This document shows positions 42,199 to 46,460 of a DNA stretch of 64,000 nucleotides, in pieces. The stretch spans positions 3,906,001-3,970,000 of the forward strand of contig NZ_LT670844.1 in the NCBI RefSeq assembly GCF_900141755.1, in the 5' to 3' direction. This DNA comes from Bradyrhizobium lablabi (GTDB taxonomy: Bacteria > Pseudomonadota > Alphaproteobacteria > Rhizobiales > Xanthobacteraceae). The position numbers and the translations under genes were made by a program. Numbering within the stretch: position 1 is the first letter of the stretch; each line of letters begins with the position of its first letter. The notes beneath the pieces are model-generated. The model was not told where the DNA came from and made no database searches. It was given only the letters and a program-made list of their open reading frames with translations.

Positions 42199-42960
42199 AT
42201 GGATCGGCCGGGTGAAACCACGCATTTTGGCTTCAGGGACGTCCCCGTCGGCGACAAGCAGGGGCTGGTCAACGACGTGTTCCACAGCGTGGCGCGGCGT
42301 TACGATCTGATGAACGATCTGATGTCGGCGGGGCTGCATCGGCTCTGGAAGGACATCATGATCAACGCGCTCAATCCGCCGCGCAGCGATACCCCCTTCG
42401 CACTGCTCGACGTCGCCGGCGGCACCGGCGACATCGCGTTCCGCGCCGCCAAGGGCGCAGGGTCAGGTTTTCACGCCACCGTCTGCGACATCAATTCCGA
42501 TATGCTCGCCGTCGGCCGCGAACGCGCGATCGCACGGCATCTCGAGGACCGCGTCGAGTTTGTCGAAGGCAATGCCGAGGCGCTGGCGTTTCCCGACCGC
42601 CATTTCGACGCCTATACCATCGCGTTCGGCATTCGCAATGTGCCGCTGATCGACCAGGCGCTTCGCGAGGCGTTTCGGGTGCTGCGACCCGGCAGCAGAT
42701 TTCTGTGCCTGGAGTTCTCCACCGTTGACGTGCCCGGACTCGACCGGATCTACGACCTGTTTTCGTTCAAGGTGATCCCGCCGCTCGGCCGCGCGGTCAC
42801 GGGCGATGCCGATTCCTATCAATATCTCGTCGAATCGATCCGCAAATTTCCGAGGCCCAACGCGTTTGCCGAGATGATCCGCGCCGCCGGATTTTCGCGC
42901 GTCAATTGGCAAAGTCTCTCCGGCGGCATCGTGGCGCTGCATTCGGGCTGGCGTTTGTGA
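42199..42960 (+). CDS. ubiE: Ubiquinone/menaquinone biosynthesis C-methyltransferase
   Basis: A 253-residue SAM-dependent methyltransferase of ubiquinone synthesis. The SAM motif [14 protein letters not shown] and UbiE signatures [24 protein letters not shown] and [23 protein letters not shown] are clear. The stop overlaps the GTG start of ubiB by four bases, so ubiE and ubiB are co-translated. Confidence 0.97.
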
Positions 42961-44531
42961 TTTCTGCCATTACCCACATCGCGCGGCTCGCCCGCGCCGG
43001 CTTTGTGTTTGCGCGCGAGGGCGTATTCGGCGTCGTCGATCCGTCGCTGGTGCCGCCGCCGGGGCAATTGGCGCTGAAGCTCGCGCGCATCGTCGAGCGC
43101 CCCGGCGCCAAGTCCGGCCCGCGGCTGTCGCGCGCGCTGACCCGGCTGGGACCGGCCTACCTAAAGCTCGGGCAGTTCCTCGCGACCAGACCCGATGTGG
43201 TCGGCGTCATGATGGCGCGCGATCTGGAAAGCCTGCAGGACCGGCTGCCGCCGTTTTCGCAGAGCGAGGCCGAGGCCGTCATCGCGCAATCGCTGGAACG
43301 TCCAGTGGCGCAGGCCTTTGCGAGTTTTGGGCCGGCGGTCGCCGCCGCCTCGATCGCGCAGGTGCATCGCGGCGAGACCGAGCGTGATGGCGTGCGCACG
43401 CCGGTCGCGGTGAAGGTGCTGCGGCCCAATGTCGCCTCGCGCTTCCGCCGCGACCTCGCCGATTTCTTCTTTGTCGCGCACCAGGCCGAAATCCATTCGG
43501 CGGAAGCCCGCCGGCTGCGGCTGATCGAGGTCATCAATACGATGTCGCGGTCGGTCGCGATAGAGATGGATTTACGGCTCGAGGCCGCGGCACTTTCCGA
43601 AATGGCGGAGAACACCCGCAACGATCCGGATTTCCGCGTGCCCGCGGTCGACTGGGACCGAACCACGCACAACGTGCTGACGATGGAATGGGTCGACGGT
43701 ATCGCGCTCAGCGACCATGCACGACTGGAGCAATCGCAGGTCGATTTGCCCGAGCTCGGCCGCAAGGTGATCCAGAGTTTCCTGCGGCATGCGCTGCGCG
43801 ACGGCTTCTTTCATGCCGACATGCACCCCGGCAATCTGTTCCTCGACGATGCCGGCCGGCTGGTTGCGGTCGATTTCGGCATCATGGGCCGGCTCGGCCT
43901 GAAGGAGCGGCGTTTTCTGGCCGAAATTCTCTTAGGCTTCATCACGCGCGATTATCGCCGCGTGGCGGAGGTCCATTTCGAGGCCGGCTATGTGCCGGCG
44001 CATCATTCGGTGGAGAATTTCGCGCAAGCCATCCGCGCCATCGGCGAGCCGATCCACAACCGCACCGCCGAAGAAATCTCGATGGCGAAACTGTTGACGC
44101 TGTTGCTTGAGGTCACCGGCCTGTTCGACATGCGCACCCGGCCCGAACTGATCCTCTTGCAAAAGACCATGGTGGTTGTCGAAGGCGTCGCGCGCGGCTT
44201 CGATCCAAAACTCGACATCTGGAAGGTCGCCGATCCCGTGGTACGGGAATGGATCGAGCGCAATCTCGGGCCCATCGGACGCATTCAGGGCGCGATGGCC
44301 GGCGCCGGCGACCTCGGCCGGGTGCTGACGGGGCTGCCGGCGATTGCGGCGCGGGCGGTGACGGTGCTGGAGCAATTGGAGACCATGACCCGGGAGGGGC
44401 TGACGCTGTCGCCGGAAACCATTGCAGCCATGGGGCGTACGGAGGGCCGCAAGAGCCGCTGGCGCACCATCGCGCTCTGGATCATCGCCGCGACTTTTAT
44501 CGGAATTCTGGTGGCGATCAAACAAATGTGA
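42957..44531 (+). CDS. ubiB: Ubiquinone biosynthesis protein kinase-like UbiB
   Basis: A 524-residue atypical (ABC1/ADCK/UbiB) kinase-like ATPase needed for ubiquinone synthesis. The family block [13 protein letters not shown], the Ala-rich loop [12 protein letters not shown], the catalytic [11 protein letters not shown] and metal VDFGIMGRL motifs are present, and one or two membrane helices lie at the C-terminus ([15 protein letters not shown]). The GTG at 42957 overlapping the ubiE stop is chosen over an upstream frame start inside ubiE. The last codons overlap the inverted repeat before coaBC. Confidence 0.94.
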
Positions 44532-44562
44532 TTGCGATGCAATCACATGATGATATCATTGC
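44526..44562. promoter_or_regulatory. Candidate operator: inverted repeats upstream of coaBC
   Basis: ATGTGATTGC (44526-44535) and GCAATCACAT (44539-44548) form a perfect 10-bp inverted repeat with a 3-bp centre. A second perfect palindrome, ATGATATCAT, is at 44550-44559, and a third ATTGC half-site at 44558-44562. The block starts in the ubiB stop region and ends 24 bases before coaBC. FitA-type ribbon-helix-helix proteins bind such palindromes, and coaBC begins with this domain. Confidence 0.6.
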
Positions 44563-44586
44563 TGGCAAAAGAGCTCGGAGACGCTC

Positions 44587-46001
44587 ATGGCCAGCCTCAC
44601 CATCCGAAAACTCGATGAGGGCGTCAAAGCCTATCTGCGGCTGCGCTCCGCCAAGAACGGCCGCTCGGTCGAAGAGGAAGTCAGGGTGATCCTTCGGGAA
44701 ATGATCGAGGGCCGCCCCTATTCTGTTGAAGCGCACCCGCCGCAGGCCACCACGCCGCCCTTTCCGCGGCGCGCCGATGCGACCGACCAACCCCGCATCA
44801 CCCTCATCATCGGCGGCGGTATCGCGGCCTACAAGGCGCTGGATCTGATCCGGCGGCTCAAGGACCGGCATCTTCACGTCCGCTGCGTGCTGACAAAAGC
44901 CGCGCAGCAATTCGTCACGCCGCTGGCGGCCTCAGCGCTGTCGCATGAGCGCGTCTACACCGATCTGTTCGATCCCGAGAGCGAGTTCGACGCCGGCCAT
45001 ATTCGCCTGGCGCGGGAATGCGAACTGATTGTGGTAGCGCCGGCGACCGCCGACCTGATGGCGAAGATCGCGCAGGGCCATGCCGACGATCTCGCCAGCG
45101 CCATTCTGCTTGCCACCAACCGGCCGATCCTGCTGGCGCCGGCGATGAACCCCTTGATGTGGAACAATCCCGCGACCCGCCGCAATGTCGCGCAGCTCGA
45201 ACGCGACGGCGTCGCCATGGTCGGCCCCAATGCGGGCGAAATGGCCGAAGCGGGCGAGGCCGGAATCGGCCGGATGGCGGAGCCCACCGAAGTCGCCGCC
45301 GCCGCGGAGCGCTTCGTGCGCCCAGCCCAGCCGCGTCCGCTCGCCGGAAAACGCGTCCTCGTGACCGCGGGACCGACGCACGAGCCGATCGATCCGGTGC
45401 GCTACATCGCCAACCGCTCCTCCGGCAAACAGGGGTTTGCCATTGCCGCAGCAGCACAAACCGCCGGCGCCGACGTCACCCTGATCTCGGGCCCGGTCGA
45501 TCTCGACGATCCCAAGGGCGTGACGGTGAGGCGTGTGGAATCCGCCCGCGAAATGTTGCATAGGGTGGAAGCCGCCCTCCCCGTCGATATCGCGATCTTC
45601 GCCGCGGCGGTTGCCGACTGGCGCGTGGCCAATGAAGGCGAACAGAAACTGAAAAAGACTTCCGCCGGCATGCCACCGCTGCAGCTCGTTGAAAACCCCG
45701 ATATCCTCGCGACAATCGCAAAACTCGCCGATAAGCGGCCGCCGCTGGTGATCGGCTTTGCCGCCGAGACCGAACATCTGATCGACAACGCCAAGGCGAA
45801 ACTGGCGCGCAAGGGCTGCGACTGGATCCTCGCCAATGACGTCTCGCCGGCAACCGGCGTGATGGGTGGCGACCGCAACACGATTCATCTGCTGACCCGT
45901 GAGGGTGCCGAAATCAATGTCGATTCCTGGCCGGTGATGACCAAGGAACAGGTCGCAGCCGCGCTGGTGGCGCGGATCGCCAAAACCGCCGAGAAAACCG
46001 C

Positions 46002-46005
<4 letters not shown>
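44587..46005 (+). CDS. coaBC: Ribbon-helix-helix (FitA-like) domain fused to CoaBC
   Basis: Bifunctional 4'-phosphopantothenoylcysteine synthetase/decarboxylase for coenzyme A synthesis, 472 residues. Residues 1-40 ([33 protein letters not shown]) match the FitA/Arc-like antitoxin DNA-binding fold. After a Pro-rich linker comes CoaC (about 68-245) with His138, [10 protein letters not shown] and PAMNPLMW; then CoaB (about 250-470) with RSSGKQGFA and KLKK. Ala222 stands where E. coli CoaC has its active-site Cys. A GGAG site six bases before the ATG supports translation of the fused domain. It overlaps dut by four bases. Confidence 0.92.

Positions 46006-46459
<454 letters not shown>

Positions 46460-46460
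<1 letters not shown>

Follow-up and report, generated by a model that had tools for sequence, protein, structure and literature searches.

We propose that the CoaBC enzyme encoded in the window, the whole 64,000-nucleotide stretch of Bradyrhizobium lablabi DNA analyzed here, is very likely a dedicated repressor of its own gene. Its ribbon-helix-helix (RHH) domain would have been domesticated from a fitA–fitB toxin–antitoxin operon lying between ubiB and coaBC, with the operator of that operon retained. An earlier sequence-only reading had suggested that this enzyme could be its own transcriptional regulator, and the comparative evidence now strongly supports that idea, with FitA-type sites standing before fused genes and fitAB intermediates surviving in relatives. 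The operator and the toxin–antitoxin origin are new relative to that reading.

The coaBC frame encodes 472 residues, begins with ATG, follows a GGAG and contains no internal stop (Table 1), so the unbroken frame and good ribosome-binding site described from the letters alone both hold. The start of ubiB is listed at the first possible position. Neither of the neighbors, ubiB and dut, is a toxin, and a PIN toxin partner is absent beside the fused gene. We infer that coaBC and dut are co-transcribed.

Table 1. Features of the coaBC region, numbered by position in the window.
Feature	Positions	Strand	Residues	Basis or remark
ubiB (ABC1 kinase-like), upstream neighbor	42906..44531	+		end falls in operator site 1
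Operator site 1, TGATTGCGATGCAATCA	44529..44545	.		palindrome with 7-bp arms and 3-bp center; candidate FitA-type site
Promoter-like pair TTGCGA - 16 nt - TATCAT	44532..44559	+		consensus match only; hexamers inside both sites
Operator site 2, TGATATCATTGCTGGCA	44551..44567	.		differs from TGATNNCANTGNNATCA at 2 positions; spacing to site 1 of 22 bp
RBS-like GGAG	44577..44580	+		read from sequence
coaBC frame	44587..46005	+	1-472	ATG start
FitA-like RHH domain	44590..44706	+	2-40	Pfam, PDB matches, dN/dS, AlphaFold2/Foldseek
Linker	44707..44787	+	41-67	pLDDT under 50 at 43-65; fast evolving (dN/dS)
CoaC part, phosphopantothenoylcysteine decarboxylase	44788..45336	+	68-250	Pfam, NCBIfam, PDB alignment
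CoaB part, phosphopantothenate-cysteine ligase	45337..46002	+	251-472	stop codon 46003-46005
dut (dUTPase), downstream neighbor	46002..46460	+		overlaps coaBC stop codon

The FitA-like domain that had been recognized by eye at the N terminus of CoaBC is borne out by Pfam, in which FitA-like_RHH (PF22513) matches residues 2–38 with a score of 56.5 bits (cut-off 27; E 2.6e-15), and by PDB sequence searches, in which the gonococcal FitA entries 2bsq and 2h1o (E about 0.02) are the only matches of the N terminus up to E 1. The first 68 residues alone gave no match in NCBIfam. Structure prediction, which had been proposed as a check, agrees in part. AlphaFold2 forms the two RHH helices at residues 11–24 and 28–41, and Foldseek ranks DNA-bound FitA (2bsq) first for the predicted domain with a probability of 1.00 but an E of 0.13; the chain is short, and no match fell below E 0.001. 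The monomer models lack the ribbon strand, and in the full-length model residues 2–7 appear as a low-confidence helix instead. Other RHH proteins, for example Arc, CopG and AmrZ, follow FitA in the ranking, with the RHH of PutA at rank 38.

Comparison of 1540 pairs drawn from 56 congeneric genes puts dN/dS at 0.161 in the RHH, as against 0.578 in the linker, 0.151 in CoaC and 0.134 in CoaB; by these ratios, purifying selection on the RHH is about as strong as on the enzyme. Residues R7, R20, A22, S27, E29, E31, R33 and L36 are invariant in all 139 fused proteins compared, a set that omits the one gene (L141) that is broken further downstream and is counted among the 140 fused loci below. R7 sits in the segment that aligns with what we take to be the FitA ribbon. 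The closeness of the RHH ratio to that of the enzyme, together with the invariant residues, indicates that the N-terminal part is very probably translated and under selection. We also considered an internal start at Met39, which is unlikely: the RHH codons are under selection, and the MAS.T start and the GGAG are kept.

The rest of the protein had been described as a linker leading into a complete CoaC–CoaB, and this description stands. Pfam assigns Flavoprotein to residues 70–238 and DFP to 252–435, and the NCBIfam CoaBC model TIGR00521 covers residues 70–464 with 394.9 bits against an equivalog cut-off of 219.7 (E 4e-118). By sequence, the closest solved relative of the enzyme part is Mycobacterium smegmatis CoaBC (6TGV, E 3e-73), which is also the first Foldseek match of the whole model; the alignment covers only residues 69–446, and the RHH has no counterpart in 6TGV. 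Judged by profile and fold, both catalytic domains are complete, and their enzyme activities are predicted. In the full-length AlphaFold2 model, an ordered CoaBC is joined to the RHH via a low-confidence linker (residues 43–65).

The active-site cysteine of E. coli-type CoaC lies in an ACGD motif. Residue 222 of this CoaBC (45250–45252) is alanine, and the expected cysteine is apparently absent. A crude search for the motif found cysteine in 0 of the 101 fused proteins that could be placed (of 139) and in 8 of the 46 that have no FitA, 13 of which were not placed. In the alignment, this cysteine seems to be missing from M. smegmatis 6TGV too, so its absence is probably ordinary.

A palindromic candidate operator lies upstream of coaBC, as it does for FitA-type genes, and is here present as two sites. 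The half-site of gonococcal FitA is TGCTATCA/TGATAGCA. Where more than one site was counted at a fused locus (up to 3 mismatches), the spacing is 22–23 bp in 71 of 77. The promoter-like hexamers of the window are likewise 22 bp apart, so this spacing could stem from the promoter no less than from the protein. One promoter-like pair was found in the window, where shuffled sequence gives a mean of 0.1; across the 140 fused loci, the promoter consensus occurs 20 times against 7.7 expected, a weak excess. Matching changes in the operator arms exceed the level set by column make-up at positions 5/13 only (42 of 88 vs 32.6), and we therefore build no claim on arm covariation.

The domain and these sites are linked by their joint distribution. 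Within 200 bp upstream of the gene, a site with up to 2 mismatches to the consensus TGATNNCANTGNNATCA, derived by eye from loci (up to L158) that are themselves part of the fused set, is present at 138 of 140 fused loci and at 1 of 46 coaBC loci without a FitA part or neighbor (29 from the same family and 17 from other families). Fisher's exact test gives p 1.5e-39 for this difference, uncorrected for kinship. At loci fetched once the pattern was fixed, the site occurs at 33 of 33 fused genes vs 1 of 13 without FitA, and dinucleotide shuffles of 106 fused upstream stretches contain it in about 1.3% of cases. The sole locus without FitA that has a site is L201, where by eye the site is not a clean palindrome. 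The 193-locus set behind these counts omits the own-genome loci L057–L068, L095 (the same gene as L123), and L121 and L124 (shorter copies of L208 and L207).

The same association appears in named loci (the best 80 of 592), where the site stands before 48 of 51 fused genes, one of them cut by a contig end (L255), and before 0 of 28 others; the 80th, a frame-broken Afipia locus, has an exact site. Some of these loci come from genomes already sampled (L244, for instance, is from G281), so this result is not independent of the larger one. Once kinship is controlled on a tree, well-supported branches offer only seven independent contrasts, of which on average 4.9 have the operator going with the fusion, 0 against it and 2.1 no difference (median p 0.0625); this tree samples one in eight of the 56 same-genus loci and omits L141, L221–L236, L244, L255 and L301–L309. 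The fused loci L084 and L088 have no site within 2 mismatches. At L084, L098 and L105, all fused, the DNA directly before the start codon resembles an inserted repeat; upstream of it, L098 and L105 have an operator-like site and L084 has none within 2 mismatches.

Could the palindromes serve another purpose, such as a ubiB terminator or the site of another regulator? The first three bases of site 1 are the ubiB stop codon and the site can form a hairpin, as such a role might have it, but the terminator-like match is on the minus strand only. Moreover, just 1 of 33 loci that have ubiB upstream and lack FitA carries the site, and an exact copy precedes an unfused fitA in another family (L218). 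We regard this explanation as very improbable. That the RHH is a passive leftover or a mere tether between subunits, with no DNA binding, is very improbable as well. Such a remnant may start out neutral after fusion, and dimerization is a general property of RHH domains, yet this one is under purifying selection near that of the enzyme, keeps R7 invariant and is preceded by a FitA-type site in nearly every fused gene.

In the 7.9-Mb genome of B. lablabi itself, operator site 1 is the only exact match to TGATNGCRNTGCNATCA. Allowing one mismatch adds 10 places (L059–L068), vs 1 for a control pattern; two of them, L062 and L063, are 261 bp apart. All 10 lie in frames open for at least 100 codons, as does the coaBC site in this G+C-rich genome, and their position in open frames thus neither confirms nor excludes weaker targets beyond coaBC, which may exist. 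A strict form, TGATWGCANTGCWATCA, is found in 28 of 60 genomes of the genus, at one place each, and that place is directly upstream of coaBC in 23 of 23 genomes in which this could be checked (5 of the 28 could not be). Its reversed control is found in 0 of 60. The remaining 32 genomes, our own included, have no strict match; the window lacks one because site 1 has G at position 8.

The B. lablabi genome has no PF22513 match besides that of CoaBC, and CoaBC itself therefore appears to be the natural owner of the site. This single FitA-like RHH contrasts with nine PIN-domain matches in the genome (L310–L317 and one more), which might suggest that the fusion retains an antitoxin role toward a FitB-like toxin encoded elsewhere. 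The C-terminal tail with which FitA binds its toxin is nevertheless absent, an unconserved linker standing in its place, and the adjacent genes are not toxins; we consider an antitoxin role extremely improbable. The tail, around PIGG or PLGG, is present in the unfused FitAs of L120, L122 and L208. A regular expression for it, run on the linkers, returned look-alikes only. By eye, the linker of L205 appears to retain a relic of the tail.

Relatives of the fused locus preserve what look like its precursors. An intact fitA–fitB pair lies between ubiB and an unfused coaBC at L189 (g33), L190, L191 and L208 (g67). Pfam confirms the FitB of L189 and L208 as a PIN protein, and that of L190 and L191 was recognized by similarity. 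At L120 (g33) and L122 (g27), fitA is complete and coaBC is unfused, while fitB is reduced to a few of its first and last codons, a remnant recognized in L122 by eye only. Neither fitA nor fitB is present at L192, L193 and L207 (g33). The operator is exact at L122 and L189 and has 2 mismatches at L191, and the sites at L120, L190 and L208, where FitA is also unfused, are poor (3–4 mismatches). Of 11 further loci with an unfused FitA, only 3 carry a site with 2 mismatches or fewer, which, like the poor sites just named, weighs against the proposal; this count omits L219, apparently a fragment of a fused gene at the edge of a contig. One of the three sites, that of L218, is exact, and an apparent fitB start, judged by eye, follows its fitA.

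From these loci we infer, as the simplest order of events, that a fitAB operon came to lie between ubiB and coaBC, that fitB was then lost, and that fitA was finally fused to coaBC with the operator kept. On the CoaBC tree, the fused label requires 8 changes in the first sample, and the label "fused or with fitA" requires 12 in a larger one; both a single ancient event with many losses and several separate events are compatible with these numbers.

The fusion is not a chance product of one genome, since the match begins at residue 1 or 2 in 35 of 36 genomes of the genus, that of B. lablabi among them, and a contig end truncates the gene in the remaining one. PF22513 is carried by 119 of the 120 protein homologues among the matches listed (120 of 8000; counted by eye). 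In other genera of the family, 50 of 75 genomes have a match that begins at residue 1 or 2 and stays in a single frame. These genomes were hand-picked, with at least one per genus and extras chosen partly for likely fusions, and the fraction is therefore not an unbiased rate. Counted by genus, 27 of 46 sampled genera have one or more genomes with the fusion (26 of 45 others and our own); g44 is among the 26, although its frame is broken further on, inside the enzyme part.

Elsewhere in the order, 0 of 24 genomes from other families had the fusion, one of them (G049) offering only a fragment that could not be judged. A profile of residues 1–118 gave full-length matches in at least 32 of 397 genomes of the order among the matches listed (21 in the same family, 9 in family f24 and 2 in f16), and in at least 2 of 387 genomes of the class, both of the same genus, again among the matches listed; very diverged fusions could escape such searches, for which the best matches were listed. 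Of the 11 matches in f24 and f16, 8 were fetched and 7 have the RHH in frame. For the eighth, G705, direct comparison with the RHH of the window gave no match. In genus g132 of f24, the genomes G738 and G558 (1.5–1.6 Mb) keep the fusion with a diverged RHH (L305 and L306), and by eye a palindrome-like stretch lies upstream.

Among the named loci (best 80 of 592), the fusion occurs in Bradyrhizobium, Rhodopseudomonas, Nitrobacter, Afipia and Pseudolabrys and also in Mesorhizobium, Phyllobacterium, Nitratireductor and Zhengella; it was not found in the loci of Microvirga, Methylobacterium, Bosea, Ensifer, Rhizobium, Roseibium and others. The sequence-only reading had proposed looking for the fusion within Nitrobacteraceae. 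That frame is too narrow, as Mesorhizobium, Phyllobacterium, Nitratireductor and Pseudolabrys illustrate. The same reading had named a homologue with a frame break between the two parts as the case that would count against it. One such instance was found, an Afipia metagenome-assembled genome (L123/G281, the same as L244; JANQAK010000001) in which the frame breaks within the linker, close to seven consecutive C, and the exact operator is kept; the break is either a natural split or a sequencing error. A narrow search for fusions of the RHH to other enzymes, made with the RHH of L118, returned 4 proteins, all of them CoaBC fusions.

The likeliest mechanism behind these observations is autorepression. 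With the fitB toxin gene deleted and the toxin-binding tail lost, the DNA-binding part of FitA would have been joined to CoaBC in a single frame. Protomers of the CoaBC oligomer would then pair their RHH domains into dimers that would bind the two palindromes over the likely promoter, so that abundant CoaBC would shut down coaBC and probably dut as well, and transcription running on from ubiB could maintain basal coaBC expression. DNA binding, repression rather than activation, and CoaBC homeostasis as the purpose are each presumed here. According to PMC3920265, FitA binds DNA via its RHH fold, while FitB stays off the DNA and stabilizes the complex. This is a counterpoint to autorepression, in that FitB helps FitA to hold DNA whereas the fused locus has no toxin; the CoaBC oligomer may substitute for the tethering that FitB gives FitA. 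Mycobacterial CoaBC is a dodecamer, as PMC7794376 reports, and it is plausible by analogy that an oligomer displays several RHH dimers.

Repression might, in addition, respond to metabolites. A ligand-gated trigger enzyme, in which substrate, CTP, FMN or CoA/acyl-CoA alters the oligomer and switches the RHH on or off the DNA, as proline does in PutA, is possible, though we hold it only tentatively. Precedent for it comes from trifunctional PutA, whose N-terminal RHH belongs to a protein that switches between repressor and enzyme (PMC5293562), and from mycobacterial CoaBC, where the dodecamer and the inhibition of CoaB activity by CoA and acyl-CoAs (PMC7794376) make a multivalent, possibly ligand-sensitive repressor imaginable. 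Against tight mechanical coupling of the RHH to the enzyme speak the low model confidence and the fast evolution of the linker. We are similarly doubtful that CoaBC is a direct CoA sensor-regulator, in which loading of the active site with CoA, acyl-CoA or CTP would set RHH occupancy of the coaBC–dut operator.

Biosynthetic enzymes with a DNA-binding domain of their own include BirA and NadR, which differ from RHH-CoaBC in DNA-binding fold and in pathway. We know of no toxin–antitoxin origin for PutA. With FitAB, the fusion shares the RHH sequence and fold, the operator type (exact at L218) and, in six relatives, the locus; it differs in having neither adjacent toxin nor toxin-binding tail and in placing the DNA-binding part on a metabolic enzyme. 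Standard CoaBC proteins (E. coli Dfp and M. smegmatis 6TGV) likewise have both catalytic domains complete, but 6TGV is without an RHH, and the site is found at just one of the 46 coaBC loci without FitA. RHH enzymes that repress their own gene are already known, for example PutA, also a metabolic flavoenzyme with an N-terminal RHH (PMC5293562). PutA serves another pathway, its RHH is only a distant fold match, and its repression and ligand switch have been reported, whereas for CoaBC autorepression is proposed from comparative genomic evidence and a ligand switch is a conjecture.

Our searches of the openly licensed literature gave no report of a CoaBC–RHH fusion, although one may exist elsewhere, and automatic domain annotation already displays the architecture. 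What the present comparison adds is a candidate for a dedicated transcriptional controller of CoA synthesis, which would be the enzyme itself, across a large bacterial group that includes Bradyrhizobium, Rhodopseudomonas, Nitrobacter, Afipia and Mesorhizobium. The living intermediates show how a toxin–antitoxin operon may be dismantled and its antitoxin and operator reused in a core metabolic enzyme. If CoaBC were also a sensor, the fusion would link the CoA pool directly to transcription.
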